Of a stretch of 64,000 bases of DNA, positions 19,701 to 64,000 are shown piece after piece. Positions within the stretch are counted from its first letter, which is position 1. Each line of letters opens with the position of its first letter. The notes under the pieces are model-generated. The model saw nothing but the letters and a program-made list of their open reading frames with translations. It had not been told where the DNA came from and searched no databases. This DNA comes from Sphagnum magellanicum (taxonomy: Eukaryota > Streptophyta > Sphagnopsida > Sphagnales > Sphagnaceae). The position numbers were made by a program, and so were the translations under genes. Where the stretch lies: contig CM038909.1 in assembly GCA_021904315.1 (NCBI GenBank), forward strand, positions 23,953,032 through 24,017,031. Direction: 5' to 3'.

Positions 19701-19824
19701 ATAACTAGAGAAAGTCATAAAAGAATCGGAAGAAGTCTCAACATCAGAATACATAGGCAACCAATGTACAACAATAGAAAGAAGGAAGGAATAAGAGTGT
19801 GGTGCTTTGATATTACGCTGGTAC

Positions 19825-37019: not shown

Positions 37020-37768
37020 TCTACTTACCATGTCGGAATTTAAAATGATTGCTTTCAGTCACATTCTTGAATGTGTGGCAACAATTATTAAACATGTGTA
37101 CTTTATGTGACATATATCAGTCACAAATTGCCACTATTCTTATTACACGTGTATTTCAATGGACTAATTTTAATCATGTTAACTACTAATATGACTTTAG
37201 TATATAGCTCGATTGACTACTTTTAATCATATTATCGATCTTTTGTCTAGACATCAAATTATTGTGACTAATTTAGGTCACATGTTACTATTAGTCATAT
37301 TACATGTGGTAGCAAGTACAAGACATGTACCTCATGTGACATATACTAGTCATGTTAACATCACCCTTACTACATGTGTATTTCCCATTACTCATTTTAG
37401 CCATGTTAATAATACACGCATAATTCCATTGACCAATTTTAGTCATATTATATCTATTGTCTACACATGTACTTACCATGATTAATTTAACTCATGTTAC
37501 TATTAGTCACATTACATGTGGCAACATGTGACTAACATCAATCATGGTGTTATTAGTATGAATACATGTAGGCACCAAGATGTTCCACGTTGTTTAGTCA
37601 TAGTGTCTATTATGACTAAAGCTCATATCACACTAGGTCGTAATAAAGTATGCTAGATTTGTGATTAGTCATGACGGACATTGTTAGTCATGTGCCATTT
37701 TCAAATCTAATTACATAGTCATGTTAGTCAAATTTAACTAGTGAAAAGGACATAATTTTGTTGTAGTG
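37020..37768 (+). mobile_element. CACTA element 3' end: subterminal repeats and terminus
   Basis: Many copies of AGTCACATTACATGTGG, TAGTCATGTTA and ACATGTG words in both orientations fill 37,020-37,740, as in CACTA subterminal arrays. The plus strand ends CATAATTTTGTTGTAGTG at 37,768, the inverse of CACTACAACAAAATTATG. The element therefore lies to the left, and the next triplet is ATA. Its 5' terminus was not found in this window. The last 150 bp recur in mirror image from 63,849. Confidence 0.8.
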
Positions 37769-37923
37769 ATATGACCTTTTGTTTTCTTGCTATTTTACAT
37801 TTGCATTACTCATGTTAAAGATGCAAAATTATTTAACTAAACAATCAAATGTTTAGTAAAGGCAAAAATTAATGACTAATTTAACATTAATGGGGCTTTT
37901 TGCAAATATTTCTAGTTTAGAAG

Positions 37924-40900
37924 ATGGATTTGCACTCAAAGATAGGATCAAGTCGTGGAAAGAAACAAAAGACTTGAAAAGAACCATTGGAACTATGTTA
38001 TTGTGCCAATTGTAAAGGTTTGCATCGACAGAAGAAAACCATCCTTGATATGCACATGATGTTGCATGGGAGGATGGTAGCTAAGGTACATTCTACTCAA
38101 TCGATACTCCATTGTGGAAATGTTCAATTAAGCATATATAGTATATGCATTTCGAATTTGTAAATGGAAGTCTTAAAACCCAGTATTGGATATGATGTAA
38201 TCACAAAGAACTATAGATACACCAAAAGACACACAAGAAACAAGCTCATTCAACAACTTTAATGGTGCACTAGCTAACTTCAATGGTGTACCAACTAACA
38301 CCCCTATGAGTGAGGAGGATGCCCAAGAAGAGCATGTGGGCAATGAAAGGCTAAAATAACAAGAACATTTAGGGGATTTATATGATCGTGTCTTTGGATC
38401 ACCAAAAGATGTTGGTGATAACAATCTTGAACATGATTTTATAAGTGAGCTTGCTAAAGCAAAACTTTATGAAGGAAGTGGTGTTGGCAGATTGGCAACT
38501 ATTTTTTTACTTATAAACTTGAAAGTGATCCATGGGTGGAACGACACCGGTTTCACTGCTTTGCTTGGATAAATCTTTGCTACACTCTAGTACTTTGGAA
38601 ATTGGAAATATATTTGTAAATGTGAATACAATGAACATGTCTTGAAAACCATACATTTGATTTTTTTTGCAAACTTCTAAAAGATAAGTTGTTACCCCCA
38701 AGCAACCTATTACCCAAACCCCATCAAGATGCCAAGAAACTCATCTTTGAAGTTGCTTTAGAGTCACAATTGATTCATGCAGGTGTGAATGATTGTGTTT
38801 TTTATCGTGGGGAGTATGAGTTGTTGAACATTTGTTTTATTTATGGAAAAACAGGATATTGACAAGATCTTATTAGAATTTCTATTCCCCAAAAGGTATT
38901 ATAAATTCAAATTCTCACTTTTATACTTAGGTTTCTAAACCCTAAAATCAAAATAACAGGTATTGTGAATTCCATATTCTCATTTTGAGGCTTTGTTTTG
39001 AAAACCCTAAAATTAGCATCTTCTCTACTTATGTAAGTTGGTCAAAGTTTTCATCAATTTGTTTGTCTCCTAAACCCTAGGACTAGAATATCATATTTTA
39101 TGAATTTTTTCATATGCATTTTTGTTTTAAGTCTTACAATACTTGCCACTTGCTCCACAAATTGGGAAACTTTTCCAAATTTCAAGCTCAGCTGTTTGGA
39201 TGGATTGGCATAAGAAGAACCGGAATTTGGATGGGGTGATGAGGGCTCCATGTGATTCGGAAGATTAGCAGAAGGTAGAAGAAAAGTGGCATGATTTTCA
39301 AAATGAACCTCGTCATTTGAGGCTAGGGCTTGTTGTAGAGGGTGTGAATCCTTTTTCCAATCAAAACACAAATTACTCATTATGGCCTATGTGCATTGTT
39401 AACCATAACAACCCACCATGGATGACTACCAAAAAAACATTCATTTCTCTTGCTTTGATTGTACTTGGGAAATCATAAGTGAAAAACATGGATCTGTACT
39501 TGCAACCTTTAGTTGAAGAACTCAAGATGCTATAGGAAGAAGGTATGAAAGTTGTGGATGCACCAAAGTCACCACTTGAGGAGTTTCAAGTTTGAACCAT
39601 GTTGTTATGGACAATCATGATTACCTAGGCCTTGGAGTTTGTTCAAGTACGTGCAAATTTAAGCTTTGGATTTGGGCTCTGGAATTTTCAGACTTGTAGA
39701 TTTACGTTTTGGACTTAAAATGTTGCTTATATTATAAAAGGTTGGTAATGCAAGATTTCAAACTAAAGGTTACCACGCATGTTTCCTTTGTGTCAATGAT
39801 TTGGGGGTTCGATATTCTCCTAATTTGAGGAAGGTGGTCTACACCACTTTTAGGAAATTGTTGCCTTTACATCACCCATTTCACACCACTTTGAACATCT
39901 TTTTCAATGGAGCTAATGAGAAGTCTCCATGTCCTATGCAATGCACAACCCAAGAATGGATGGACTTATGGAATACCACCTCAACAAATCACCTAGAAGG
40001 CATGAAAAGATTTTCATGCTTCTATGATTTAAAATATTGGGTACACAATACCATCCACCATTTGTTAGAACCCATGCACATTATGAAAAATCTTTGTCAT
40101 TCTTTGATTTCACATCTATTGGGGGAGAAGGAGAGTGCAAAAGCATGGACAGATCTCGAAGCATGCAACTTGAAAAAGGAATTTTGGAAACATGAAGATG
40201 GAAGCTACAAAGTTGGGTCATGGGTACTTAGTAAGAGTGAGCGGAAGACCTTCTTTATTGTTCTCAAGTTCGTCAAAGCACCCGCAGGTTATGGTTTAGA
40301 TCTCAAGAATGCAATCAACAAGAAAGATCATTTTACAAGTTTGAAGACACATGACTTTTTCAATATGTTGTTATACACGCTCTCGGTTGTAATAAAAGGT
40401 TTCATTATTACTGGTGTCTGTGAAACCATTGCCTGTCTTTCCATATTGTATGATGGGTGTGTGCTAAGGAAATTGATAAGTAGGAACTTTTGGTAATGGA
40501 AAGGGATAGTTCAATTGTTCTTACTTTGTTGGAAATGCACATGCCTACTTCATTCTTTGATTCCCAAGTTCACTTGTTCATTCATTTGGTGTAAGAAGTA
40601 GGGCTTGCAGACCCATTGGAAAGTAGGTATATGTTTTCCATTGAGAGGTTCTTAAAAACCCTAAAAGGTTTTGTCAAACAACGTGTTCATCTTGAATGGA
40701 ACACAATGGAAATATATTTGGTACAAGAAGCAATGAGTAAGTGCCATGATTTAATTGGAGACCTCAAGGAGTATGCCCTTCGAGTTTGGAAAGAAACATC
40801 AGATGCTCAAAAAATGGGTATGATCACCTTGACTTAAATTCATTTTTTCAACACATTGGAGGTGAGAACATGTTGCAAGTATGGACTAAACTAATAAGTG

Positions 40901-42041
40901 ATTGACAATGTTGGTTTTTGATAGGTGAAATATTGCTAACAACGGGAAAACCCAAAAAATTCCAAGGATATGATGATGTGGGTTATAAACAAATCAACAA
41001 ATTTGTTGCACAAAATATGGTAATAATGGGTCCCTGGTTGCAAGCTTATGAAGGCAAGAAAGAAGAGACTGAAAATGCCCTTTGAAAACAACACGAAGGT
41101 CTTACAAGGTCCATGCCTTGCAAAAACACTAGACTTTGGTGATTAGGTAAGAGATGTAATTTCAAAAGCAAAAGAGGATGGGTGTTTCATGAATGAAGAT
41201 GTTTCAAACATTGCAAGTATTAAATTTGCTGCTCATCCATTTTTTGCCTTAATCCTTTGAAATGTGTCCTTACTACTATTATACATCCAACATTCTAAAA
41301 CTTTGTTGTTTATTTCCTAGGTTACTTTCTAGCAGTGGGCTACAACTTTAACTATTAGTTAGACTCCACCATGTGGGCGCATGGGTACCACTATCGAATC
41401 CATAACCTCGATGAGTGAAGGCATAGTTGTAATTTAGGAATTGTTTGCGGGTTCCAAGAAGGTGGCAATGATGTGGACTACATTGGATTATTGGAAGAAA
41501 TTCTAAAAATGGACTACCGGAACTTGAAAGATCAAAGCTCAAAATTGGTTGTCTTCAAAGTCCAATGGTTTCAAAGCATTGTGGAATATGATGAATGCAT
41601 GTTTTATGCCATTAATAATACTCAAGTCTACTAGTCAGATAGGCTAAAAGACCAGCCATTTATATTTCCAAAATTTGTGGAACAAGTATTTTTTTGTGCA
41701 GATTAGTTGAAACTTGGTCAATTGATTGTCTTACAAAACAATCCTAGGTTATTTAGGGTTTTCGGGAAGCTACCATTGGCTTGGGATGATGGAAGCCATG
41801 TAGTTGGTTCATCTTGCACGAGGATATTCTAGAAACGCACCCCATTAGAAAGGAGATATCTCAAATTCTTGTGGATGATGATGATGCAAAAGATGGAGGG
41901 AGTGATGAAGGGGAGGTTGAGGAACTCAACATAGTTTTGGGAGACTTTAGCATTCAAAACAATATTGATTTTACTCTTGATGAACAAGAAGATTCAGACT
42001 ATGAATTTCAAAGAATGAGGTCTATTGGAGAGTTTGATTAA
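37924..42041 (+). pseudogene. CACTA (En/Spm) tnp2 transposase, decayed, left arm
   Basis: The order matches a full plant tnp2 protein. There is an N-terminal Cys motif (ELCYCANCKGLH, 37,924-38,090); an acidic linker; DAKKLIFEVAL and NDCVFYRGEYELL (38,640-38,863); the core (LRLGLVVEGVNPFSNQNTNY and MDLYLQPLVEELKML, 39,135-39,595); a cysteine stretch and KLLPLHHPFH (39,742-40,495); DUF4218 (FSIERFLKTLKGFVKQRVHL, to 40,837); and a DUF4216-like piece (PKFVEQVFF, about 41,660). At least four stops or frame changes disrupt it, including a stop after SED in the core and TAG in LKML. The element's own termini are not identified. It lies just right of the terminus at 37,768, so two CACTA copies adjoin or are nested. 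Confidence 0.88.
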
Positions 42042-42319
42042 TGCTACAATCAACCATCAAGTGGTAAGCAAGCCAGATCCAACAAGTTGTGCTCCTCTCA
42101 AACCCTTGTTGTTAATAGGATTTTGTATTCTAGGGCATTTGTTGAAGTTAAACAAGTCCTGAAAAATTTGTGAATAGACATCAAGGTATGATTTTAAATA
42201 GTTTGCTTAGAGGCACTATTGTCATCATTTGCCTCTTACATCTCATTCTCTATTCTCTTATTCTATTGGGGATGTATAACCAGATGGTTAAGGGTAGCAA
42301 TTTTGTTGTTGTTGTGAGC

Positions 42320-42690
42320 ATTACTATAGGTTTGTTTGCATGATGATACAACACCCAGAAATTGTAGAAAAGATTGAACAAAAGTTGATCTCCACCTTTG
42401 AAAAATCTGAGAAAGAGGATTAATCTAAATTTGCTACAGCCATGATCGGGAATAACAAAAAGTCTAGCCTTGATGATGATGACTCTAAAGCATCTAATGA
42501 AGCAAGCTTCAATTTGCAAGTTGTAGAATACTCCCAACACTTGACTTATGACTCTTTGTTTAATCTGCAATACGTGTATGCTACCATTTTAGAAACTCTA
42601 CAATTCTATCCTATAGTTCCCATGGTAAAAACTCACACCAAGCATGTTCTTCTAATATTTCTTTACACTCCATCCTATCGATCATGTTAG
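42320..42690 (+). pseudogene. Cytochrome P450 fragment (I-helix to K-helix), left arm
   Basis: The frame VCMMIQHPEIVEKIEQKLIS matches the end of the P450 I-helix and J-helix. After a stop and an acidic stretch, YDSLFNLQYVYATILETLQF then YPIVPMV matches the K-helix region of the CYP86/CYP94/CYP704 group (usual form YLHA..TETLRLYPAVP). The invariant ExxR has become ExxQ, so the copy is non-functional. The haem-binding Cys loop is absent. It is a short relic of a plant P450 gene lying directly after the CACTA coding remnant. Confidence 0.65.
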
Positions 42691-43046
42691 ATTTGGAGTT
42701 TGCAAAACCCAGTTTCCCTCTTTTGATTATTTGGTGATATAAGCACGTGCATAAACCATGTCGATCGTTCTTGGCTTCTTTACAACATTTAGATGACTTT
42801 TAGGTGGTGATATGAATTGCAAGGTCAAACGTCTTGAGTGTCATCAGCCTGGGCTAAAGATTGGTGACAAGCACCACAATCCTATGTACTCCCGTTGATC
42901 TACAGTAGGTGTGACCTTTGGTCGATACATCTGATAACTCTTGAAGTTTGATGATGTGAATTCCTAACATAGAAAGTAGTTACAAGTGTTGAGTGTTGAA
43001 AAGGCTTTTGAGGTGTTTGAAATTAGCAAAATAACAATAAATAATG

Positions 43047-46000
43047 TGTCAACAAGTGCCATTTTCACGCTTTTCATTCAACCATGATGATGTATTTGTA
43101 CTAGACATAACATCCAAGATTTTCCAGTTCAATGGTGCTAATTCCAGCATTCAAGAAAGGGGAAAGGCCTTGGAAGTCCTGTAGCACATCAAAGACATAG
43201 ATCATGAAGGCAAATGTGAAGTTATCATAGTTGGCACGTAAATAGACCAGTGTTCTGAAGTAATTTTTATGAGTGCCGGTGTTTCTTTTGAATCATTTGA
43301 TGGTCTAATATTTTTGTGGTATTGCATTTTCCCAAAATTTGGCTATTTGCCTTGTTGTTTTCCTATGTTCTCCAGAAGTTGGACAATTCATTGCTTTGAC
43401 AAACCTTCTCTTGCTTTGTCAAATCAAGTTACAAGAGTGTTTATTTTCTCTACCATAAATTGCATATGATGGAACTTTGGAGTTTAAAGCTAACACAGGA
43501 CAATTTTGGGGTATATTTGGGGGCTTTGCTCCATTGGTGAAAAAACTTTCAATTATCAATGATTCTCTTTTTGCAAGGATTCAAAGAAAAAATTTCTGGT
43601 AGGTATTCTCATCATTATGCATGTTTTATAACTTTGATCCAATGAATGTGACTCTTACTAAGGACAATTTATAGTGCTTCCTGACCTAACATGAACCTAG
43701 CTATTCAAAAGAGCCAAAAATAGATATTTGGGTGATGAAAATGGCAATCATACCATAGGCTCTAAATAGGATCAATTTCAGCATACATCAAACTTCACAA
43801 AAGCTTTCCGAGCCAACAAAATGTAAGGTCATTGCGGAAAAAGAAACCCTAGACTAAAGATTATACAAACCGTGAATTCGTTCTTTCTTCATGTGGTCTT
43901 CTTCTTCCTCTTCTCCTTTAGTAGCATTGGTAGCTAGAGATTTGATCTAGTTACAATTTTGATTTTGATTCTAAGGTTTGAGAAATCAACACTGTGATTC
44001 TTATATGTGCTTTTAACAAGCTTTTTCCCTATGATTTCTATCTCATAACCAGCTCTTTATAGTTTGTGAGAATGTGAAAATGTGGGTTTTTAGAGGCCAT
44101 GGAATAGGGTTTTGCTATGGCTTACTATCTGGTGAAGTTCTAAACAACTAGTCTTCGTGGTAGAACATTTAGCCCCAAACAAGTAGATCTTTGTTAAGGA
44201 AATTACAGTTTATTTTTTCGCAAATGAATTCTAGAGGTACAAATTTGTAGTATCAGGTTACATGGATCATACAACCGTGGAAAATCTATCTTGATATGCA
44301 CCTCAAACTATTTTAATTTTTAGTTGTGAAATTTCACTAACAATGCTGTTGTTATTGCTTTGTATATTGCAGTGGCAAAGAAGACGTCCATGTTTGATGA
44401 TCTTGTTGTAAAGATACAAGATCTTATTTTAATCATCAAGTAGGATATAATTGCATCAAATGCAACCATATCAAAGTTATAGTTTCTTTGTGATTTTCGA
44501 AATGAGGTTGTAAATCGAATAAAACATTGTACCAAACATTCAATTACTATCATGGATGACCTGAAGAGCCGGCTCATGAGCACAACAAAGGACTTCAAGG
44601 ATGTTCCAACATTGAGGACAAATGTGAGCTCTCCTCCAAAGAGGATAATGAAGGATGATAAAACTACAGTGAAGAAGTGTTCATGGATATTGTTCTTCAC
44701 AAAATATGTTAGGGAAAAGGTTCTAGAACTACTGAATTCTACTAAGAAGCTTTAGGTTTTCACTCCTTACATGTACATTATTCATCTAGCTAATAGGTTA
44801 TTTTATGGTCATATGAAGGGAACTATGAAGCAAACCATAATAAGTGTTAGTCAAGGTTTATCTTTCACATGTCATGTATGCTAGTACTTATGGCCATGTA
44901 ATGTGAGACAATTAGAAATGATCCAAATGCATATTGAAGTATCATGAATTGAGTGGTGGTTTGATCTTAGTATGAGTTGAAACTCTTGGGTTAGCAGAGA
45001 TGGATGCAAATGTAAATAAGTGGAATCTAAATGGTTAACAATACTTCTAAGAGTTGGAGGTGTGGGATATAATTGAAGATGTTGAAGAGAGTTTTGAAAA
45101 GATGAGATTATAACACAGGGAAAGTTACATTTTGATTTTATGCAATCTCAGGTGTGGACGGTGGACGGAATTGCAAAATCAGATGTGCCTTTGGTAGATG
45201 TTGGAAAGTTTTATGATAACAATTTGTTACATTGTATTCTATACATATCAAGGTGACAAATCTGACCGCAAGGAAGAATACTTGTTGTGTTATTAGCTTG
45301 GTCGACATGCTTTTGTGGTATAGCAATTTGGAATATCCTTAAAACATGTAGATGTGCATCTTATAGTTTCTAAAATGTAAACAATGATAGGAGCAAGGTG
45401 TGCTTATGACATTTTCATTGTGCCTATGTATCAAGTGAAGTGTTTTAAGTAGGTTAATAGTGGGACTTGGTTCCTTCTTAAAATGTTTGTTGATTTGGTT
45501 TTATATATTTGGTTGCTATGATTGTTGTAATTGGCAGGAAGACAAGGCAGCAATTGCAATTCTGACCAATGAAATCTCTTTTTCATTAAAAGATCGTCCA
45601 ATGCAAGTTTTTTTTTCCCTTCAACTCCTTATGCTTCAATTTTCTTCCCCTCCTTTTTTTAATTCATTTCTAAGTCCAAAAATCTCCCAACTAAACTTAG
45701 TTTTGGTTTCAACATGCAAGTTAACACCTTTGGGAAATGGTAGGCTCAGATTTTCAAGGAAAGGAGCCACCCCGGTTTCTAGCACTGTTTGAATGCATGT
45801 GCATTTTTAAGGTTTGAAACCTATCCTAGTAGTTTTTGTGATATAAAATGTAGTTGCATAAGTGAGCTCCTTCAAAACTTCATGCAATAGTGTGGTGGTC
45901 TTTATACTTCCACTTTAATTGCATTTCCTTTATCTTCTTGTTTATTGATAAATGTTAGCCAACTATAGGCAAGCACAAGTCCAAGTCAAAAGGATAACAA

Positions 46001-47698
46001 AAAGAACCCAATTATACTAATACAAGTGCGAGGTGGCAATCGACACATCATTCAAGTTATGCAAGTTTAACCTGTAAGTTGAAAAGCTTGCATTGGAGCC
46101 TTTGAAGATTTATTTGTTGTAAGGTGAAAAATTTCCAATTTAACTACTCTTTATCATTTTGAGTCATGCAACATATTATGTACCAAAGTTTTACAACCAC
46201 TCTAACCATAGAAATTTCCTTCCATGTGGTAATACCATTTTAAAATGTTTGCACAATACGGTGTCCTTATATGGACGTCACAATGACAGTTTTTCATGTA
46301 TTCCCTAAATACAAGAAAATTGAAAAAATAAAAGTCATTGAAGTAATAAAAAAAGGGACTCACTTATCTAAAACTATCATAATCAACCTTCCAAAAATGA
46401 AAAAATCAAATGAAAATCATGGATAACCAATAAGTAATGGACTTTTGAATTTTGCCCACATTTTTTGTCACACCTACAAAACTCATGGATATGGACTTTT
46501 ATTTTACAATGTGTGAATCTTATGTGTTTGAAACTTTGGGATATTGAATGAATCATGTTTAAGAAACTAAAGATCCATTGAATGAATGGAATGTGATTTT
46601 AATTTATTATGTCATGGACTTTTTAAAATTCGAAAAACTATATTTTTTTAAAAAGCCCTTTTAAGCATTTAAAAATAATTATTTAAAAAAATAAATTTTG
46701 TGATACTTTGTATATGTTTTATAGCATCATGATTTGAAATTGGAAATAGAAAAAATTGTTACTTTTAATATCATCTAAATATTCATATTTTCAGTTAGTT
46801 TTCGACTACATTAAAAAAGGACTTTGAAAAGGGATTCTAATCCGCCGAAATTGTGACACCCTAATGTGCTTTCACCTTTCACTTCCTACAACAATCTGCA
46901 TCAACTAGCAACACTAAGAGAAGCATATTGAACTATAGTTGCATTCCTAAGAGGTAAGAGTTTATAATTGTTATACTTGGAACATATTGCTCTTGAATTG
47001 GCTTATAACACCTTTTGCTTTATTAACAAATTGATTCAATTTAAACATGTAGGTGGCAGAGGTGTTCAATTTCACACAAGATGATTTACTAAGTGAGGAT
47101 GTAATGATTTTGGACGGTCAAAAATGCCATACATGTATGGGTGGGTCAACATGCCAACATCAATGATAAAGTACATGCATGGGATATTATTCAAGTACTA
47201 TTCTTTCTTTCACATTTGAGGGAGGGAGTAAACTTGAAGGTTTGTTAGGAACTTGTTAATGATTCCCAAAAAATGTGGTATTAACTTCTCCACATGACAC
47301 AAGATACATGTCACTTTACTATATATTGTTTATTCTTTAATATAAGTTGCCAAAGAGCACTTTGAGAAACAAGAAATGTAAAGTAATAGTCCTAAATATT
47401 TCAGATGTTTAAAGTGACCTATTTGTCACATGCTGACAAATGATTACATGGACTAACTTTCTCCTATTCAAATTAATTTATGTTGTATGTCTTGCATTTG
47501 GAAAGAAAGGTGTTTACTTGTCTATATGAGTCATCTTTGAATTGTTGTTTAATTCTACATTGGAAACAATGGATGCGGAAATACCTTGAAAGGGTTGTTG
47601 GTTTTGAGGTAACACCACCAGATAATACAATCTTGAAAGCGGTGGAAGGAAATGAACCATCATTTTTTACCACATACTTCTCATGGCACCCTAACAAG
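43047..47698 (+). pseudogene. Villin (gelsolin-family actin-binding) gene relic, left arm
   Basis: Villins bind, sever and bundle actin filaments. Six blocks lie in villin order: 43,047-43,241 ([18 protein letters not shown], then [13 protein letters not shown]); 43,468-43,600 (ANTGQFWGIFGGFAPLVKK); 45,152-45,320 (VWTVDGIAKSDVPLVDVGKF, shifting frame to KSDRKEEYLLCY); 45,538-45,607 (EDKAAIAI to SLKDRPMQ); 47,053-47,195 (VAEVFNFTQDDLLSEDV, then a shift to HVWVGQHANINDK); and 47,575-47,698 (AVEGNEPSFFTTYFSW). Most blocks are bounded by AG or GT, so introns are retained and this is not a processed copy. In-frame stops (TAG after ALEVL, TAG after LLCY) and frameshifts show decay. Exons for the middle gelsolin repeats are missing between 43,600 and 45,152. 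The headpiece is absent. Confidence 0.85.
44373..44755 (+). pseudogene. SYP3/Sed5-type syntaxin fragment, left arm
   Basis: After the acceptor TATATTGCAG the frame reads AKKTSMFDDLVVKIQDLILI, a stop in place of the usual Gln, then DIIASNATISKL, and further on HSITIMDDLKSRLMSTTKDF then KDVPTLRTN. This matches the N-terminal helical region of plant syntaxin-5 homologues, Q-SNAREs of the Golgi. The SNARE helix and membrane anchor are absent. The piece sits in the gap between villin exons 2 and 3 in the same orientation. It was inserted there or joined when both were mobilised. Confidence 0.78.
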
Positions 47699-48329
47699 GT
47701 AGTTGTAAATCACTTACTAGTGTTCCAAAAACACCATTAGGGTAGATAAAACAACCAATAAAATAAAGTTCAATAAAAAATTCAAAGTTCGGATTTCAAA
47801 TATTAACACTTTATTTAGCTATGAATTGGATCCAAGTGAGAACATGCTTTTACTAATTAGGTAGCAAACCTTTCACAATCCAATACCTTTGAAGAGTGAG
47901 AGACAAGAACCATAGTCTTCACATAGCTATGGTATGGACATATGAAGATCCCTTTTAAGCACCAGTTTGACTTTTTTGGCTTCACATCAGTTCCCCCAAT
48001 GGTTATTTGTGGCAAAGTGGAAACAAAATATTTGGAAGGCATTCTAGATTCTTAAAGTATTGGCATTTGCTTCAAGAATCTCAACATCCATGAACTCATC
48101 ATTACTAGATTTATCACAAATCTAATAATTTTCCATGGGAGTTTCACAGAAAAAACTGACACAAACACATGATAAAATGCATTGTATGAACCATAATATG
48201 TATCTGGCTTCCATAAGGATCCAAATAGGATTATAGAATATCAACTCTACAGTTGGTGGGATAAGTTTTGTTGATTGCCATAATTGAAAGATGGAATAGA
48301 ATCGAGCCCAAATTTCTCCCAACCTAAGT
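47699..48329. other. Gene-free arm stretch
   Basis: No gene was recognised. A 61-codon minus frame (47,857-48,042) starting MPSKYFVSTLPQITIGGTDV is protein-like but unassigned. Confidence 0.35.
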
Positions 48330-49111
48330 AAATTTGCCCATCTCCAAGTCAGGTAGTCCATCTTCCAAATCACCTGCAAATTTTTTAGACATGCATTAGA
48401 AATGAGGAATTTGGTGAACTGAGCAAACAATTCAGAATTGAAACCAAAACCAAATTGCATCCAATCCAGATGAAGCCCATGTAAATAACAAAAACTTGGT
48501 AAATGAAACGATAGACCATTCCATAAGCAAATGCTTCACAACCAAAGTCAACACACCATTCATTTTAATCCCACAACCTCCAACATCCACAATTACATAT
48601 AAGCCACTCAAAACGTCCATGTTGAAATGAAGTTATGCATATCACAATTTTCATGTTTTTACGGGAACTATGAAGCTTAAAGACATTACATGAACGAAAT
48701 CAAGATGTGCTAGTTTTGGTCAATTCAATCCATTGATTACAGACACTAGCAAGTTGTCAAATTACATGTCAAAAGTCAATCTCCCCATCTAGGACCCATC
48801 TACACAAGCCACATCACTCACCGGTTGGGAGGGCACTTGCATCCCTAGCATCAACACCATCTACAAATTGCCCACCCAAAACTTGTGCTTTAGTCCAATC
48901 CATTATATCACATTGCATAATTCAATCTCCCCATCTAGGACCCATCTACACAAGCCACATCACTCACCGGTTGGGAGGGCACTTGCATCCTTAGCATCAA
49001 CACCATCTACAAATTGGCCACCCAAAACTTGTGCTTTAGTCCAATCCATTATATCACATTGCATAATTCAATCTCCCCATCTAGAACCCATCTACACAAA
49101 CCCTACACATT
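48330..49111 (-). repeat. Dispersed repeat with 146-bp tandem array, left arm
   Basis: The block is collinear with 23,260-23,820. Its end is a 146-bp unit repeated in tandem from 48,777 and 48,923, with a partial third copy from 49,069; units begin CAATCTCCCCATCTAGGACC. On the minus strand each full unit encodes IMDWTKAQVLGGQFVDGVDA, then RDASALPTG followed by GTGAGT, which resembles an exon end with a splice donor. The tandem array may therefore be an exon duplication. The parent gene is unknown. Confidence 0.75.
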
Positions 49112-50901: not shown

Positions 50902-51114
50902 ATGCCACAGAGTTTCCTGCCTGGGCCTTCTTCACCTCTGCCTTGAGTATGTCGTGTGCTGCGTAGCTCGTATGATAGTTCTTGGGTGGAATTTCAAAGG
51001 AACTGTTGTACCGCCCGTGTTGCGATCAATTACTCAGTCGTCATTTACTTTGTCACCAGGTTCGATTTCGCTTTCTATATGCATGAGAACTGATTCACTT
51101 GGCATCACGGTGTT

Positions 51115-51402
51115 TTGTTTTACCTCTTCCTGACTAAGCAGAACTTAATCAGGAACTTACCGGAACTAAGCAGATTATTCAGATTTTGCAGCACCAAACC
51201 TGTAGTTGAACTTGTGCAGGATACTCGAAGGCAAAGAATGGCTCAAGCAAGTACATTCAGAGTGTTATTTGATGTCGCGGAGTTGGCGATCGGCATAGGT
51301 GGACTGTTCATCACAGGATGGAGCCTTCATCTCAGCAGAGTAAGAGCAAGAACAGAACGAACTGCAACCGCAGAAACTGGTAAACCAACTCCATGTCCTT
51401 AG
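51115..51402 (+). CDS. Hypothetical 95-codon frame beside the palindrome centre, right copy
   Basis: Identical in translation to the frame at 50,213-50,500, in opposite orientation. The two copies are divergently arranged around the 188-bp spacer, with about 614 bp between their starts. Function is unknown; see the left copy for details. Confidence 0.4.
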   Translation: MFYLFLTKQNLIRNLPELSRLFRFCSTKPVVELVQDTRRQRMAQASTFRVLFDVAELAIGIGGLFITGWSLHLSRVRARTERTATAETGKPTPCP

Positions 51403-52503
51403 TCCCCAGTTCTGCAATCTGAGATTATCATTTTTTCTTGTGATGACTTGTTTATTATCATTTTGTGCTACATGGTTCTACTTTCGGAAACGCCGGATCT
51501 GACAGTGATGGTCATTGAGTCACAGGGAACACGGACCAGGCCGAATTGGGCGACCATGGTGACACTGAGGCAAGAGCACTACTAGGTACGTGTACTCCAG
51601 GGAAGTGAATTAGAACACACATGGTTTGTTGAGAATGGAAGAGGGGAAAACAGATCCTGAAAATTTGTGAAGCGTCCTTCCTAACAACACTGCAGGTTCA
51701 TAGGACCAAAGCTAAACATCCCCACATTTCCCACCCCCCTGGAATTGAAACGTATCAGAATTCAACAGTACCCTGAGGTTCCAGTTTTCCCAGATTTTCT
51801 TTTTGGCCTCCTAGTTACTAACATTCTAAAGCCCTAGCCCATTTTCTGAACACTAGATGTTTCCAAACCAATGTTGTAAGGGTATCCAGTTTGCAGGGTT
51901 AAATCTGGGTTCCAATCCACAGAGGGTATCTAGCTATAGGGTTAAATCTTGGGTTCAAGTCCAAGTTACCTTTTGTTGGAATCAGCACAAGGATCGAACG
52001 GTGCAGTTAGTCTTTTGCTAATTTGAAACAGAAACTAGAATCATGAAAAAACATTCTCAAGAACACATGATTAGGATCATTTTTAGAAGGAAAGTTGATT
52101 TCTTTTGAAAAGTTAATAAGTATGGTGAACTTTATAGTTAAATATTAATTTTAAGTAGTTCTTGAACTTCATATTTATATAGACTCTTGTTTTGTTGTAA
52201 AACATAGTGCTCATGCAATCCCTAGCATTGGAGACTGCGTAACATGTACATGAGGTTGGATTTAGTTTTTGAACCAAGTTTAGAAGTTCTTGAATTTGAA
52301 TAAATCTGCTACAACTAGAACTGAAAAGTTTTGAAATTGAAAAAATTAAACTCAAACCCTCACCCAAAAAATCTCCAAATATAGTTTACAATGTGAAAAT
52401 TGAGAATTGTAAGAGGGAGATAATGTTTTTGTAGGTTTCTTTTCCTCCCATCCCCCCCCCTTCGATTCTCCTTGAACACATCAAATGTATCGTAGCTCAA
52501 CAA
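51403..52503. other. Gene-free arm stretch, right copy
   Basis: Mirror of 49,112-50,212. No gene was recognised. Confidence 0.35.
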
Positions 52504-53285
52504 AATGTGTAGGGTTTGTGTAGATGGGTTCTAGATGGGGAGATTGAATTATGCAATGTGATATAATGGATTGGACTAAAGCACAAGTTTTGGGTGGCCA
52601 ATTTGTAGATGGTGTTGATGCTAAGGATGCAAGTGCCCTCCCAACCGGTGAGTGATGTGGCTTGTGTAGATGGGTCCTAGATGGGGAGATTGAATTATGC
52701 AATGTGATATAATGGATTGGACTAAAGCACAAGTTTTGGGTGGGCAATTTGTAGATGGTGTTGATGCTAGGGATGCAAGTGCCCTCCCAACCGGTGAGTG
52801 ATGTGGCTTGTGTAGATGGGTCCTAGATGGGGAGATTGACTTTTGACATGTAATTTGACAACTTGCTAGTGTCTGTAATCAATGGATTGAATTGACCAAA
52901 ACTAGCACATCTTGATTTCGTTCATGTAATGTCTTTAAGCTTCATAGTTCCCGTAAAAACATGAAAATTGTGATATGCATAACTTCATTTCAACATGGAC
53001 GTTTTGAGTGGCTTATATGTAATTGTGGATGTTGGAGGTTGTGGGATTAAAATGAATGGTGTGTTGACTTTGGTTGTGAAGCATTTGCTTATGGAATGGT
53101 CTATCGTTTCATTTACCAAGTTTTTGTTATTTACATGGGCTTCATCTGGATTGGATGCAATTTGGTTTTGGTTTCAATTCTGAATTGTTTGCTCAGTTCA
53201 CCAAATTCCTCATTTCTAATGCATGTCTAAAAAATTTGCAGGTGATTTGGAAGATGGACTACCTGACTTGGAGATGGGCAAATTT
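52504..53285 (+). repeat. Dispersed repeat with 146-bp tandem array, right arm
   Basis: Mirror of 48,330-49,111, with the same two full 146-bp units and partial third unit. Here the coding-like exon segments read on the plus strand. Confidence 0.75.
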
Positions 53286-53916
53286 ACTTAGGTTGGGAGA
53301 AATTTGGGCTCGATTCTATTCCATCTTTCAATTATGGCAATCAACAAAACTTATCCCACCAACTGTAGAGTTGATATTCTATAATCCTATTTGGATCCTT
53401 ATGGAAGCCAGATACATATTATGGTTCATACAATGCATTTTATCATGTGTTTGTGTCAGTTTTTTCTGTGAAACTCCCATGGAAAATTATTAGATTTGTG
53501 ATAAATCTAGTAATGATGAGTTCATGGATGTTGAGATTCTTGAAGCAAATGCCAATACTTTAAGAATCTAGAATGCCTTCCAAATATTTTGTTTCCACTT
53601 TGCCACAAATAACCATTGGGGGAACTGATGTGAAGCCAAAAAAGTCAAACTGGTGCTTAAAAGGGATCTTCATATGTCCATACCATAGCTATGTGAAGAC
53701 TATGGTTCTTGTCTCTCACTCTTCAAAGGTATTGGATTGTGAAAGGTTTGCTACCTAATTAGTAAAAGCATGTTCTCACTTGGATCCAATTCATAGCTAA
53801 ATAAAGTGTTAATATTTGAAATCCGAACTTTGAATTTTTTATTGAACTTTATTTTATTGGTTGTTTTATCTACCCTAATGGTGTTTTTGGAACACTAGTA
53901 AGTGATTTACAACTAC

Positions 53917-56900
53917 CTTGTTAGGGTGCCATGAGAAGTATGTGGTAAAAAATGATGGTTCATTTCCTTCCACCGCTTTCAAGATTGTATTATCTGGTGG
54001 TGTTACCTCAAAACCAACAACCCTTTCAAGGTATTTCCGCATCCATTGTTTCCAATGTAGAATTAAACAACAATTCAAAGATGACTCATATAGACAAGTA
54101 AACACCTTTCTTTCCAAATGCAAGACATACAACATAAATTAATTTGAATAGGAGAAAGTTAGTCCATGTAATCATTTGTCAGCATGTGACAAATAGGTCA
54201 CTTTAAACATCTGAAATATTTAGGACTATTACTTTACATTTCTTGTTTCTCAAAGTGCTCTTTGGCAACTTATATTAAAGAATAAACAATATATAGTAAA
54301 GTGACATGTATCTTGTGTCATGTGGAGAAGTTAATACCACATTTTTTGGGAATCATTAACAAGTTCCTAACAAACCTTCAAGTTTACTCCCTCCCTCAAA
54401 TGTGAAAGAAAGAATAGTACTTGAATAATATCCCATGCATGTACTTTATCATTGATGTTGGCATGTTGACCCACCCATACATGTATGGCATTTTTGACCG
54501 TCCAAAATCATTACATCCTCACTTAGTAAATCATCTTGTGTGAAATTGAACACCTCTGCCACCTACATGTTTAAATTGAATCAATTTGTTAATAAAGCAA
54601 AAGGTGTTATAAGCCAATTCAAGAGCAATATGTTCCAAGTATAACAATTATAAACTCTTACCTCTTAGGAATGCAACTATAGTTCAATATGCTTCTCTTA
54701 GTGTTGCTAGTTGATGCAGATTGTTGTAGGAAGTGAAAGGTGAAAGCACATTAGGGTGTCACAATTTCGGCGGATTAGAATCCCTTTTCAAAGTCCTTTT
54801 TTAATGTAGTCGAAAACTAACTGAAAATATGAATATTTAGATGATATTAAAAGTAACAATTTTTTCTATTTCCAATTTCAAATCATGATGCTATAAAACA
54901 TATACAAAGTATCACAAAATTTATTTTTTTAAATAATTATTTTTAAATGCTTAAAAGGGCTTTTTAAAAAAATATAGTTTTTCGAATTTTAAAAAGTCCA
55001 TGACATAATAAATTAAAATCACATTCCATTCATTCAATGGATCTTTAGTTTCTTAAACATGATTCATTCAATATCCCAAAGTTTCAAACACATAAGATTC
55101 ACACATTGTAAAATAAAAGTCCATATCCATGAGTTTTGTAGGTGTGACAAAAAATGTGGGCAAAATTCAAAAGTCCATTACTTATTGGTTATCCATGATT
55201 TTCATTTGATTTTTTCATTTTTGGAAGGTTGATTATGATAGTTTTAGATAAGTGAGTCCCTTTTTTTATTACTTCAATGACTTTTATTTTTTCAATTTTC
55301 TTGTATTTAGGGAATACATGAAAAACTGTCATTGTGACGTCCATATAAGGACACCGTATTGTGCAAACATTTTAAAATGGTATTACCACATGGAAGGAAA
55401 TTTCTATGGTTAGAGTGGTTGTAAAACTTTGGTACATAATATGTTGCATGACTCAAAATGATAAAGAGTAGTTAAATTGGAAATTTTTCACCTTACAACA
55501 AATAAATCTTCAAAGGCTCCAATGCAAGCTTTTCAACTTACAGGTTAAACTTGCATAACTTGAATGATGTGTCGATTGCCACCTCGCACTTGTATTAGTA
55601 TAATTGGGTTCTTTTTGTTATCCTTTTGACTTGGACTTGTGCTTGCCTATAGTTGGCTAACATTTATCAATAAACAAGAAGATAAAGGAAATGCAATTAA
55701 AGTGGAAGTATAAAGACCACCACACTATTGCATGAAGTTTTGAAGGAGCTCACTTATGCAACTACATTTTATATCACAAAAACTACTAGGATAGGTTTCA
55801 AACCTTAAAAATGCACATGCATTCAAACAGTGCTAGAAACCGGGGTGGCTCCTTTCCTTGAAAATCTGAGCCTACCATTTCCCAAAGGTGTTAACTTGCA
55901 TGTTGAAACCAAAACTAAGTTTAGTTGGGAGATTTTTGGACTTAGAAATGAATTAAAAAAAGGAGGGGAAGAAAATTGAAGCATAAGGAGTTGAAGGGAA
56001 AAAAAAACTTGCATTGGACGATCTTTTAATGAAAAAGAGATTTCATTGGTCAGAATTGCAATTGCTGCCTTGTCTTCCTGCCAATTACAACAATCATAGC
56101 AACCAAATATATAAAACCAAATCAACAAACATTTTAAGAAGGAACCAAGTCCCACTATTAACCTACTTAAAACACTTCACTTGATACATAGGCACAATGA
56201 AAATGTCATAAGCACACCTTGCTCCTATCATTGTTTACATTTTAGAAACTATAAGATGCACATCTACATGTTTTAAGGATATTCCAAATTGCTATACCAC
56301 AAAAGCATGTCGACCAAGCTAATAACACAACAAGTATTCTTCCTTGCGGTCAGATTTGTCACCTTGATATGTATAGAATACAATGTAACAAATTGTTATC
56401 ATAAAACTTTCCAACATCTACCAAAGGCACATCTGATTTTGCAATTCCGTCCACCGTCCACACCTGAGATTGCATAAAATCAAAATGTAACTTTCCCTGT
56501 GTTATAATCTCATCTTTTCAAAACTCTCTTCAACATCTTCAATTATATCCCACACCTCCAACTCTTAGAAGTATTGTTAACCATTTAGATTCCACTTATT
56601 TACATTTGCATCCATCTCTGCTAACCCAAGAGTTTCAACTCATACTAAGATCAAACCACCACTCAATTCATGATACTTCAATATGCATTTGGATCATTTC
56701 TAATTGTCTCACATTACATGGCCATAAGTACTAGCATACATGACATGTGAAAGATAAACCTTGACTAACACTTATTATGGTTTGCTTCATAGTTCCCTTC
56801 ATATGACCATAAAATAACCTATTAGCTAGATGAATAATGTACATGTAAGGAGTGAAAACCTAAAGCTTCTTAGTAGAATTCAGTAGTTCTAGAACCTTTT

Positions 56901-58568
56901 CCCTAACATATTTTGTGAAGAACAATATCCATGAACACTTCTTCACTGTAGTTTTATCATCCTTCATTATCCTCTTTGGAGGAGAGCTCACATTTGTCCT
57001 CAATGTTGGAACATCCTTGAAGTCCTTTGTTGTGCTCATGAGCCGGCTCTTCAGGTCATCCATGATAGTAATTGAATGTTTGGTACAATGTTTTATTCGA
57101 TTTACAACCTCATTTCGAAAATCACAAAGAAACTATAACTTTGATATGGTTGCATTTGATGCAATTATATCCTACTTGATGATTAAAATAAGATCTTGTA
57201 TCTTTACAACAAGATCATCAAACATGGACGTCTTCTTTGCCACTGCAATATACAAAGCAATAACAACAGCATTGTTAGTGAAATTTCACAACTAAAAATT
57301 AAAATAGTTTGAGGTGCATATCAAGATAGATTTTCCACGGTTGTATGATCCATGTAACCTGATACTACAAATTTGTACCTCTAGAATTCATTTGCGAAAA
57401 AATAAACTGTAATTTCCTTAACAAAGATCTACTTGTTTGGGGCTAAATGTTCTACCACGAAGACTAGTTGTTTAGAACTTCACCAGATAGTAAGCCATAG
57501 CAAAACCCTATTCCATGGCCTCTAAAAACCCACATTTTCACATTCTCACAAACTATAAAGAGCTGGTTATGAGATAGAAATCATAGGGAAAAAGCTTGTT
57601 AAAAGCACATATAAGAATCACAGTGTTGATTTCTCAAACCTTAGAATCAAAATCAAAATTGTAACTAGATCAAATCTCTAGCTACCAATGCTACTAAAGG
57701 AGAAGAGGAAGAAGAAGACCACATGAAGAAAGAACGAATTCACGGTTTGTATAATCTTTAGTCTAGGGTTTCTTTTTCCGCAATGACCTTACATTTTGTT
57801 GGCTCGGAAAGCTTTTGTGAAGTTTGATGTATGCTGAAATTGATCCTATTTAGAGCCTATGGTATGATTGCCATTTTCATCACCCAAATATCTATTTTTG
57901 GCTCTTTTGAATAGCTAGGTTCATGTTAGGTCAGGAAGCACTATAAATTGTCCTTAGTAAGAGTCACATTCATTGGATCAAAGTTATAAAACATGCATAA
58001 TGATGAGAATACCTACCAGAAATTTTTTCTTTGAATCCTTGCAAAAAGAGAATCATTGATAATTGAAAGTTTTTTCACCAATGGAGCAAAGCCCCCAAAT
58101 ATACCCCAAAATTGTCCTGTGTTAGCTTTAAACTCCAAAGTTCCATCATATGCAATTTATGGTAGAGAAAATAAACACTCTTGTAACTTGATTTGACAAA
58201 GCAAGAGAAGGTTTGTCAAAGCAATGAATTGTCCAACTTCTGGAGAACATAGGAAAACAACAAGGCAAATAGCCAAATTTTGGGAAAATGCAATACCACA
58301 AAAATATTAGACCATCAAATGATTCAAAAGAAACACCGGCACTCATAAAAATTACTTCAGAACACTGGTCTATTTACGTGCCAACTATGATAACTTCACA
58401 TTTGCCTTCATGATCTATGTCTTTGATGTGCTACAGGACTTCCAAGGCCTTTCCCCTTTCTTGAATGCTGGAATTAGCACCATTGAACTGGAAAATCTTG
58501 GATGTTATGTCTAGTACAAATACATCATCATGGTTGAATGAAAAGCGTGAAAATGGCACTTGTTGACA
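53917..58568 (-). pseudogene. Villin gene relic, right arm
   Basis: Mirror copy of the villin relic at 43,047-47,698, with the same six exon blocks, stops and frameshifts in inverse orientation. Block positions follow 101,615 minus x: for example, the FFTTYFSW block is at about 53,917-54,040 and the [14 protein letters not shown] block at about 58,374-58,568. It shares the gap in the middle gelsolin repeats. Confidence 0.85.
56860..57242 (-). pseudogene. SYP3/Sed5-type syntaxin fragment, right arm
   Basis: Mirror of 44,373-44,755, with the same stop in place of Gln and the same truncation. It again lies between villin blocks 2 and 3, so the fragment joined the villin relic before the inverted duplication. 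Confidence 0.78.
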
Positions 58569-58924
58569 CATTATTTATTGTTATTTTGCTAATTTCAAAC
58601 ACCTCAAAAGCCTTTTCAACACTCAACACTTGTAACTACTTTCTATGTTAGGAATTCACATCATCAAACTTCAAGAGTTATCAGATGTATCGACCAAAGG
58701 TCACACCTACTGTAGATCAACGGGAGTACATAGGATTGTGGTGCTTGTCACCAATCTTTAGCCCAGGCTGATGACACTCAAGACGTTTGACCTTGCAATT
58801 CATATCACCACCTAAAAGTCATCTAAATGTTGTAAAGAAGCCAAGAACGATCGACATGGTTTATGCACGTGCTTATATCACCAAATAATCAAAAGAGGGA
58901 AACTGGGTTTTGCAAACTCCAAAT

Positions 58925-59295
58925 CTAACATGATCGATAGGATGGAGTGTAAAGAAATATTAGAAGAACATGCTTGGTGTGAGTTTTTACCATGGGAACT
59001 ATAGGATAGAATTGTAGAGTTTCTAAAATGGTAGCATACACGTATTGCAGATTAAACAAAGAGTCATAAGTCAAGTGTTGGGAGTATTCTACAACTTGCA
59101 AATTGAAGCTTGCTTCATTAGATGCTTTAGAGTCATCATCATCAAGGCTAGACTTTTTGTTATTCCCGATCATGGCTGTAGCAAATTTAGATTAATCCTC
59201 TTTCTCAGATTTTTCAAAGGTGGAGATCAACTTTTGTTCAATCTTTTCTACAATTTCTGGGTGTTGTATCATCATGCAAACAAACCTATAGTAAT
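58925..59295 (-). pseudogene. Cytochrome P450 fragment, right arm
   Basis: Mirror of 42,320-42,690, with the same ExxQ change in the K-helix motif and the same internal stop. Confidence 0.65.
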
Positions 59296-59573
59296 GCTCA
59301 CAACAACAACAAAATTGCTACCCTTAACCATCTGGTTATACATCCCCAATAGAATAAGAGAATAGAGAATGAGATGTAAGAGGCAAATGATGACAATAGT
59401 GCCTCTAAGCAAACTATTTAAAATCATACCTTGATGTCTATTCACAAATTTTTCAGGACTTGTTTAACTTCAACAAATGCCCTAGAATACAAAATCCTAT
59501 TAACAACAAGGGTTTGAGAGGAGCACAACTTGTTGGATCTGGCTTGCTTACCACTTGATGGTTGATTGTAGCA

Positions 59574-62500
59574 TTAATCAAACTCTCCAATAGACCTCAT
59601 TCTTTGAAATTCATAGTCTGAATCTTCTTGTTCATCAAGAGTAAAATCAATATTGTTTTGAATGCTAAAGTCTCCCAAAACTATGTTGAGTTCCTCAACC
59701 TCCCCTTCATCACTCCCTCCATCTTTTGCATCATCATCATCCACAAGAATTTGAGATATCTCCTTTCTAATGGGGTGCGTTTCTAGAATATCCTCGTGCA
59801 AGATGAACCAACTACATGGCTTCCATCATCCCAAGCCAATGGTAGCTTCCCGAAAACCCTAAATAACCTAGGATTGTTTTGTAAGACAATCAATTGACCA
59901 AGTTTCAACTAATCTGCACAAAAAAATACTTGTTCCACAAATTTTGGAAATATAAATGGCTGGTCTTTTAGCCTATCTGACTAGTAGACTTGAGTATTAT
60001 TAATGGCATAAAACATGCATTCATCATATTCCACAATGCTTTGAAACCATTGGACTTTGAAGACAACCAATTTTGAGCTTTGATCTTTCAAGTTCCGGTA
60101 GTCCATTTTTAGAATTTCTTCCAATAATCCAATGTAGTCCACATCATTGCCACCTTCTTGGAACCCGCAAACAATTCCTAAATTACAACTATGCCTTCAC
60201 TCATCGAGGTTATGGATTCGATAGTGGTACCCATGCGCCCACATGGTGGAGTCTAACTAATAGTTAAAGTTGTAGCCCACTGCTAGAAAGTAACCTAGGA
60301 AATAAACAACAAAGTTTTAGAATGTTGGATGTATAATAGTAGTAAGGACACATTTCAAAGGATTAAGGCAAAAAATGGATGAGCAGCAAATTTAATACTT
60401 GCAATGTTTGAAACATCTTCATTCATGAAACACCCATCCTCTTTTGCTTTTGAAATTACATCTCTTACCTAATCACCAAAGTCTAGTGTTTTTGCAAGGC
60501 ATGGACCTTGTAAGACCTTCGTGTTGTTTTCAAAGGGCATTTTCAGTCTCTTCTTTCTTGCCTTCATAAGCTTGCAACCAGGGACCCATTATTACCATAT
60601 TTTGTGCAACAAATTTGTTGATTTGTTTATAACCCACATCATCATATCCTTGGAATTTTTTGGGTTTTCCCGTTGTTAGCAATATTTCACCTATCAAAAA
60701 CCAACATTGTCAATCACTTATTAGTTTAGTCCATACTTGCAACATGTTCTCACCTCCAATGTGTTGAAAAAATGAATTTAAGTCAAGGTGATCATACCCA
60801 TTTTTTGAGCATCTGATGTTTCTTTCCAAACTCGAAGGGCATACTCCTTGAGGTCTCCAATTAAATCATGGCACTTACTCATTGCTTCTTGTACCAAATA
60901 TATTTCCATTGTGTTCCATTCAAGATGAACACGTTGTTTGACAAAACCTTTTAGGGTTTTTAAGAACCTCTCAATGGAAAACATATACCTACTTTCCAAT
61001 GGGTCTGCAAGCCCTACTTCTTACACCAAATGAATGAACAAGTGAACTTGGGAATCAAAGAATGAAGTAGGCATGTGCATTTCCAACAAAGTAAGAACAA
61101 TTGAACTATCCCTTTCCATTACCAAAAGTTCCTACTTATCAATTTCCTTAGCACACACCCATCATACAATATGGAAAGACAGGCAATGGTTTCACAGACA
61201 CCAGTAATAATGAAACCTTTTATTACAACCGAGAGCGTGTATAACAACATATTGAAAAAGTCATGTGTCTTCAAACTTGTAAAATGATCTTTCTTGTTGA
61301 TTGCATTCTTGAGATCTAAACCATAACCTGCGGGTGCTTTGACGAACTTGAGAACAATAAAGAAGGTCTTCCGCTCACTCTTACTAAGTACCCATGACCC
61401 AACTTTGTAGCTTCCATCTTCATGTTTCCAAAATTCCTTTTTCAAGTTGCATGCTTCGAGATCTGTCCATGCTTTTGCACTCTCCTTCTCCCCCAATAGA
61501 TGTGAAATCAAAGAATGACAAAGATTTTTCATAATGTGCATGGGTTCTAACAAATGGTGGATGGTATTGTGTACCCAATATTTTAAATCATAGAAGCATG
61601 AAAATCTTTTCATGCCTTCTAGGTGATTTGTTGAGGTGGTATTCCATAAGTCCATCCATTCTTGGGTTGTGCATTGCATAGGACATGGAGACTTCTCATT
61701 AGCTCCATTGAAAAAGATGTTCAAAGTGGTGTGAAATGGGTGATGTAAAGGCAACAATTTCCTAAAAGTGGTGTAGACCACCTTCCTCAAATTAGGAGAA
61801 TATCGAACCCCCAAATCATTGACACAAAGGAAACATGCGTGGTAACCTTTAGTTTGAAATCTTGCATTACCAACCTTTTATAATATAAGCAACATTTTAA
61901 GTCCAAAACGTAAATCTACAAGTCTGAAAATTCCAGAGCCCAAATCCAAAGCTTAAATTTGCACGTACTTGAACAAACTCCAAGGCCTAGGTAATCATGA
62001 TTGTCCATAACAACATGGTTCAAACTTGAAACTCCTCAAGTGGTGACTTTGGTGCATCCACAACTTTCATACCTTCTTCCTATAGCATCTTGAGTTCTTC
62101 AACTAAAGGTTGCAAGTACAGATCCATGTTTTTCACTTATGATTTCCCAAGTACAATCAAAGCAAGAGAAATGAATGTTTTTTTGGTAGTCATCCATGGT
62201 GGGTTGTTATGGTTAACAATGCACATAGGCCATAATGAGTAATTTGTGTTTTGATTGGAAAAAGGATTCACACCCTCTACAACAAGCCCTAGCCTCAAAT
62301 GACGAGGTTCATTTTGAAAATCATGCCACTTTTCTTCTACCTTCTGCTAATCTTCCGAATCACATGGAGCCCTCATCACCCCATCCAAATTCCGGTTCTT
62401 CTTATGCCAATCCATCCAAACAGCTGAGCTTGAAATTTGGAAAAGTTTCCCAATTTGTGGAGCAAGTGGCAAGTATTGTAAGACTTAAAACAAAAATGCA

Positions 62501-63693
62501 TATGAAAAAATTCATAAAATATGATATTCTAGTCCTAGGGTTTAGGAGACAAACAAATTGATGAAAACTTTGACCAACTTACATAAGTAGAGAAGATGCT
62601 AATTTTAGGGTTTTCAAAACAAAGCCTCAAAATGAGAATATGGAATTCACAATACCTGTTATTTTGATTTTAGGGTTTAGAAACCTAAGTATAAAAGTGA
62701 GAATTTGAATTTATAATACCTTTTGGGGAATAGAAATTCTAATAAGATCTTGTCAATATCCTGTTTTTCCATAAATAAAACAAATGTTCAACAACTCATA
62801 CTCCCCACGATAAAAAACACAATCATTCACACCTGCATGAATCAATTGTGACTCTAAAGCAACTTCAAAGATGAGTTTCTTGGCATCTTGATGGGGTTTG
62901 GGTAATAGGTTGCTTGGGGGTAACAACTTATCTTTTAGAAGTTTGCAAAAAAAATCAAATGTATGGTTTTTCAAGACATGTTCATTGTATTCACATTTAC
63001 AAATATATTTCCAATTTCCAAAGTACTAGAGTGTAGCAAAGATTTATCCAAGCAAAGCAGTGAAACCGGTGTCGTTCCACCCATGGATCACTTTCAAGTT
63101 TATAAGTAAAAAAATAGTTGCCAATCTGCCAACACCACTTCCTTCATAAAGTTTTGCTTTAGCAAGCTCACTTATAAAATCATGTTCAAGATTGTTATCA
63201 CCAACATCTTTTGGTGATCCAAAGACACGATCATATAAATCCCCTAAATGTTCTTGTTATTTTAGCCTTTCATTGCCCACATGCTCTTCTTGGGCATCCT
63301 CCTCACTCATAGGGGTGTTAGTTGGTACACCATTGAAGTTAGCTAGTGCACCATTAAAGTTGTTGAATGAGCTTGTTTCTTGTGTGTCTTTTGGTGTATC
63401 TATAGTTCTTTGTGATTACATCATATCCAATACTGGGTTTTAAGACTTCCATTTACAAATTCGAAATGCATATACTATATATGCTTAATTGAACATTTCC
63501 ACAATGGAGTATCGATTGAGTAGAATGTACCTTAGCTACCATCCTCCCATGCAACATCATGTGCATATCAAGGATGGTTTTCTTCTGTCGATGCAAACCT
63601 TTACAATTGGCACAATAACATAGTTCCAATGGTTCTTTTCAAGTCTTTTGTTTCTTTCCACGACTTGATCCTATCTTTGAGTGCAAATCCATC
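59574..63693 (-). pseudogene. CACTA tnp2 transposase, decayed, right arm
   Basis: Mirror of 37,924-42,041, with domains in the same order on the minus strand. One extra A near 62,970 is the only difference found in the coding relic. It lies in a run beside the DAKKLIFEVAL region and lengthens a local frame relative to the left copy. Confidence 0.88.
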
Positions 63694-63848
63694 TTCTAAA
63701 CTAGAAAATATTTGCAAAAAGCCCCATTAATGTTAAATTAGTCATTAATTTTTGCCTTTACTAAACATTTGATTGTTTAGTTAAATAATTTTGCATCTTT
63801 AACATGAGTAATGCAAATGTAAAATAGCAAGGAAAACAAAGGTCATAT

Positions 63849-64000
63849 CACTACAACAAAATTATGTCCTTTTCACTAGTTAATTTGACTAACATGACTA
63901 TGTAATTAGATTTGAAAATGGCACATGACTAACAATGTCCGTCATGACTAATCACAAATCTAGCATACTTTATTACGACCTAGTGTGATATGAGCTTTAG
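63849..64000 (+). mobile_element. CACTA terminus and subterminal repeats, right arm
   Basis: The sequence starts CACTACAACAAAATTATGTC and continues into subterminal words (TGACTAACATGACTA, CATGACTAACAATG), mirroring 37,616-37,768. This is the left end of an element that extends beyond the window. The palindrome therefore includes at least the tip of the CACTA element on both sides. Confidence 0.8.

Follow-up and report, generated by a model that had tools for sequence, protein, structure and literature searches.

The W chromosome of the willow Salix purpurea carries four homologous palindrome arms of about 20 kb (one of them shorter), which are more than 99% identical on average; the arms show visible insertions and deletions, and the spacer of W.P1 measures 2.6-3.6 kb (PMC7023750). 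For the poplar Y chromosome, inverted repeats have been described whose identity is 90-95% and whose spacers measure about 2-2.7 kb (PMC7465354). Yeast forms inverted dimers when inverted repeats in single-stranded DNA fold back, and in the wild type a 200-bp spacer, compared with a 12-bp spacer, lowers rearrangement about 20-fold (PMC10164571). Long-read sequencing generates fold-back reads, defined by default as reads whose two halves map within 200 bp of each other, on opposite strands, with the turn near the middle of the read (PMC12870357). Such reads have been reported at about 0.55-0.6% of nanopore genomic reads in other data (PMC12870357), inverted-repeat reads at 0.18-7.33% in ligation nanopore data (PMC13141652) and palindromic reads at 0.5% in unamplified PacBio Arabidopsis data (PMC6218980), although none of these frequencies is directly applicable to the 64,000-nt stretch of Sphagnum magellanicum DNA analysed here (the window). 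In a gorilla Y assembly made from amplified DNA, inverted duplications vanished once the reads were split (PMC6218980). Virtually no fold-backs were reported for one PacBio HiFi genomic set tested (PMC12870357), in a paper that also mentions briefly that long palindromes are not reliably amplified by PCR, and chimeric alignments are given as at most 0.81% in HiFi libraries, PCR-amplified or not, versus 69.3% with MDA (PMC11809032).

Comparison of the window with itself by BLASTN returned one dominant inverted match, in which 37616-50713 pairs with the reverse complement of 50902-64000 over 13,101 columns at 99.962% identity, with no mismatches and five 1-nt gaps. The parts of this structure are as follows.

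37616-50713, plus strand: left arm, with a length of 13,098 nt or more (BLASTN self-comparison)
50714-50901, no strand: spacer of 188 nt at G+C 0.48, containing numerous short inverted repeats
50902-64000, minus strand: right arm, reverse-complementary to the left one and truncated where the window ends

The match between the arms is not attributable to chance, and the alignment confirms the giant near-perfect palindrome of at least 26.4 kb with a 188-bp spacer that the first-pass annotation had described from the letters. The constant coordinate sum of 101,615, noted there over about 12 kb, holds without a break from 38645 to 50713 in the left arm, an inner stretch of 12,069 nt over which the two arms agree letter for letter. 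The arm length of 13.1 kb is a minimum, the mirror of 37616 being the final base of the window. The window contains no N (the base counts total 64,000), which means that no scaffold gap lies at the centre of the palindrome.

The arms differ by five 1-nt changes in length, all of which fall within the outermost 1,029 of the 13,098 arm nucleotides.

37733-38644, plus strand: stretch of the left arm with all five differences, each a 1-nt change in a run of 1-5 nt
62971-63884, minus strand: counterpart stretch of the right arm
38644, left versus right arm: A4 versus A5
37908, left versus right arm: T3 versus T4
37785, left versus right arm: C1 versus C2
37777, left versus right arm: T4 versus T3
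37733, left versus right arm: A3 versus A2

A distance of 8 nt separates the gaps at 37777 and 37785, which cancel each other out, and without gaps the same letters would read as three substitutions in 6 nt; two indels are the simpler reading. Mutation accumulation in Arabidopsis provides a scale for this set, as two control sets together yielded 91 SNVs and 18 indels (an indel share of 16.5%, or 0.165) and a heat set had an indel share of 0.296 (PMC8145854). With these counts, five indels out of five have a probability of 1.2e-4 at the share of the two control sets, 2.3e-3 at that of the heat set and 6e-5 at that of one control set; when the adjacent pair is left aside, a hand calculation at the control share gives P of about 0.0045 for three clear indels out of three. 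For the crowding into the outer 1,029 nt, P is 3e-6 when that particular end is considered and 1.1e-4 when any equally short span is allowed, both values having been computed after the pattern had been seen. The indel-only set fits plant mutation poorly, as does the crowding. Nearly all indels in the Arabidopsis study lay in or near simple repeats (PMC8145854), so that natural mutation produces run-length changes too and these are not decisive by themselves; the absence of substitutions is. The identical inner arm holds 83 runs of at least 5 nt and 34 of at least 6 nt, each equal in length in both arms, and no run longer than 5 nt is found among the five differing sites. Longer runs are the places where natural slippage is expected to be commonest. 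The differences thus avoid the expected slippage sites, because all the long runs of the inner arm agree between the arms.

We propose that the palindrome is most likely a fold-back artefact of a read or of the assembly. The differences between the arms are of the type made by sequencing errors (no mismatches and five run-length changes), though the adjacent pair could be three substitutions, and this reading is favoured because they are 1-nt length changes only and are crowded at one end, as consensus errors would give. The spacer of 188 nt also falls within the limit of about 200 bp between opposite-strand halves that is used for fold-back reads (PMC12870357). In the course of events that we infer, the genome would hold a single copy of the arm, which has been written twice in the sequence. 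The arm would have been linked to an inverted copy of itself, across the 188-nt loop, by a chimeric long read of the fold-back type or by an assembly path that ran through such a read; ordinary reads of the single-copy locus would then support both arms and polish them to the same sequence, and one arm, thinly covered far from the centre, would retain one-base run-length errors there. Polishing must be assumed, because a single raw read is not error-free over 12 kb. Against an artefact stand this need for polishing, the lack of a visible adapter at the centre and the fact that the clear indels would be three in number if 37777 and 37785 were substitutions. An artefact would also be less likely if the assembly is built from HiFi reads, because fold-backs and chimeras are reported as rare in the HiFi data cited (PMC12870357, PMC11809032). 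At 38644, which corresponds to 62971, the additional A of the right arm joins two CACTA-like transposase pieces in one frame that the left arm splits. This hints weakly that the error at 38644 may lie in the left copy, given that the transposase gene has stops and that agreement in frame is a one-in-three coincidence; for the same reasons, naming the erroneous arm by reading frame was set aside.

The centre of the palindrome holds short inverted repeats, on which folding is possible in cells as well as in the tube, so that the repeats do not separate the two origins. The spacer contains many short inverted and direct repeats, and when folded alone it reaches z -3.5, with one of 200 shuffles as good. 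A stronger fold of the centre (z -6.4) was rejected in favour of this value, as 14 nt of either arm had been folded with it, and these necessarily pair with each other. Two repeats cross the junctions between spacer and arms.

50709-50727, plus strand: stem across the left junction, 7-nt perfect stem with a 5-nt loop, read from the sequence
50800-50909, plus strand: 22-nt inverted repeat, 50800-50821 with 50888-50909, 21 of 22 matching

A stem of the 7-nt type spans the left junction but is absent from the right one; of 20,000 random positions, 425 are crossed by such a stem. The 22-nt repeat has its first half inside the spacer and its second half (50888-50909) across the right junction, leaving the left junction uncrossed; among random positions taken from the left part of the window, a repeat of this type crosses none of 300 and one of 3,000. 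The criteria for both were set after the repeats had been seen. From these letters we infer that the spacer may continue the arm natively across the right junction and that the fold itself would lie at the left junction, where it is placed because the 22-nt repeat runs across the right one. A search of the centre for an adapter remnant gave no good match, the best ungapped matches being 22 of 45 positions (SMRTbell adapter) and 13 of 28 and 12 of 22 (nanopore adapter strands). A missed adapter as the centre was rejected on these poor matches, though artefacts need not retain an adapter. A 22-nt motif from the spacer had no match in viral_contigs, a viral collection that says little on plant genomes.

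The same repeats would also suit a real duplication. A broken or single-stranded end that folded on short inverted repeats and was then copied would give a young palindrome with a 188-nt loop, and we consider this origin a serious though unlikely candidate; the five indels would then be consensus errors or a few slippage mutations. The short inverted repeats at both junctions (22-nt on the right, the 7-nt stem on the left) speak for it, and by analogy with yeast a 188-nt loop may destabilise the structure less than a loop-free palindrome would (PMC10164571). The absence of substitutions is likewise compatible with a young duplication. At the Arabidopsis control rate of 5.28e-9 per site per generation, the even-odds point for zero substitutions in two 13.1-kb arms is reached at about 5,000 generations and the 5% point at about 21,700, whereas the heat-stress rate puts the two points at about 2,200 and 9,700. 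The earlier argument that relic DNA under no selection would diverge quickly was therefore overstated, since at the control rate a 5% chance of zero substitutions is kept after about 21,700 generations. Zero substitutions alone are not extreme, and a young real duplication with a badly sequenced end would look alike. However, 1-nt length changes crowded at one end are unlike the usual mix of new plant mutations, the same geometry is produced by fold-back artefacts, and the outer end and the second flank lie outside the view, the right arm being cut at the window end. That the locus is a genuine plant palindrome of at least 26.4 kb, so young as to be free of substitutions, formed by fold-back on short inverted repeats in and beside a repeat-rich loop and tolerated despite its symmetry, is in our judgement improbable.

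The contents of the arms were read from the left arm and the spacer region, which hold 94 stop-to-stop ORFs of at least 45 aa, 27 of which were put to Pfam.

37978-40834, plus strand: left-arm pieces of a decayed CACTA (TNP2-type) transposase, with a mirror copy in the right arm
37978-38160, plus strand: Transpos_assoc, a weak match, E 0.018, below the cut-off
39738-40493, plus strand: Transposase_21, E 3.7e-6, just under the curated cut-off
40595-40834, plus strand: DUF4218, E 2.9e-7, above the curated cut-off
42424-42687, plus strand: possible cytochrome P450 fragment, PF00067, E 6.2e-4, below the curated cut-off
43041-43181, plus strand: villin/gelsolin repeat fragment, PF00626, one Gelsolin repeat, E 6.3e-10
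48761-49102, plus strand: minisatellite (146-nt period, about 2.3 copies) in the inner part of the arm, where both arms are identical; mirrored at 52513-52839

Decayed fragments only, and no intact gene, were found among these 27 of 94 ORFs, which were stop-to-stop frames and not spliced models. The first-pass annotation had assigned CACTA, villin, P450 and syntaxin sequences to the arms, which the searches support in part. CACTA is present in decayed pieces, its Transposase_21 match (E 3.7e-6) falling under the cut-off and its DUF4218 match (E 2.9e-7) above it; villin is borne out by a fragment with one Gelsolin repeat (E 6.3e-10), and P450 is represented by a weak match below the cut-off (E 6.2e-4). 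Syntaxin was not found when a single candidate ORF (44483-44752) was compared with Pfam and PDB. This ORF has no Pfam family; its two PDB chains (E 0.21 and 0.49) are both HIV gp120 scaffolds and were taken as chance. Of two further villin candidates, the ORF at 47477-47737 gave neither a match in PDB nor a Pfam villin family, and the ORF at 47108-47245 has only a weak Gelsolin match in Pfam (E 0.18). The CACTA transposase ORF gave one pattern match and no tblastn relative in viral_contigs, where such a result again says little on plant genomes.

The left flank of the window holds features of its own. A trichome-birefringence-like (PMR5/TBL) gene lies on the minus strand at 474-1442 and 2294-2704, with a PC-Esterase match (E 1.2e-66) in one open frame and a PMR5N match (E 1.8e-16). 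The PC-Esterase/PMR5N family is typical of plants, and the open PC-Esterase frame suggests that the sequence is accurate there. A 63-residue fragment of class-I aldolase (E 3.7e-22) sits in a 296-aa open frame (window 19343-20468), adjoined by a short tandem array at 19343-19684. Further along, an inverted repeat (26474-26785 and 29456-29753; about 313 columns, 85% identical) flanks about 2.7 kb, and a DUF2358 piece (28802-29146, E 4.5e-10) lies between its copies, which are possibly transposon ends around a gene piece.

The high identity of the arms could also be that of an old palindrome homogenised by arm-to-arm gene conversion, in the manner of sex chromosomes, for which the willow W chromosome offers a plant example (PMC7023750). 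The alignment with BLAST, however, contains no mismatch even at the differing margin, and no intact gene was found in the 27 of 94 arm ORFs searched. The willow arms, with their kilobase spacer and visible indels (PMC7023750), and the poplar Y repeats, at 90-95% identity (PMC7465354), also differ from the locus. An age maintained by conversion is disfavoured, as substitutions should predominate in an older margin that had diverged; we have rejected it as the main reading and regard it as very improbable. The earlier annotation had left a young structure, conversion and a fold-back side by side; the pattern of differences leans towards the fold-back and, with no substitutions in the BLAST alignment, counts against the second of these. 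It had also envisaged cruciform formation and inverted-repeat transcripts, and a real inverted-repeat locus whose putative hairpin transcripts give siRNAs against CACTA, villin and P450 sequences would agree with the geometry, which is the one point in its favour. Small RNAs from inverted repeats have been proposed for the poplar Y chromosome (PMC7465354). Such a locus requires the palindrome to be real, and we hold it to be extremely improbable.

Either origin gives the structure a wider meaning. If it is the artefact that we favour, assemblies can carry false inverted duplications, and differences in run length only, at one end, may flag such duplications from sequence alone. If it is real, it captures a giant fold-back duplication in a plant shortly after it arose and would offer a way to watch palindrome stability and the onset of silencing. 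The palindromes of the Salix purpurea W chromosome resemble the locus in being plant structures with inverted arms of 10-20 kb, but as described they have genes in their arms, a kilobase spacer and insertions and deletions of at least hundreds of bases (PMC7023750), none of which is seen here. The inverted dimers of yeast share with it short inverted repeats at the centre, a short loop and identical arms; unlike these dimers, the candidate here is known from its sequence and its outer ends lie beyond the window. The fold-back artefacts of long reads match it in their near-perfect reverse-complement halves, a loop below 200 nt and run-length differences between the arms, and they differ in that the feature here sits in assembled sequence without an adapter trace, where a fold-back at the level of the reads would be its probable cause.
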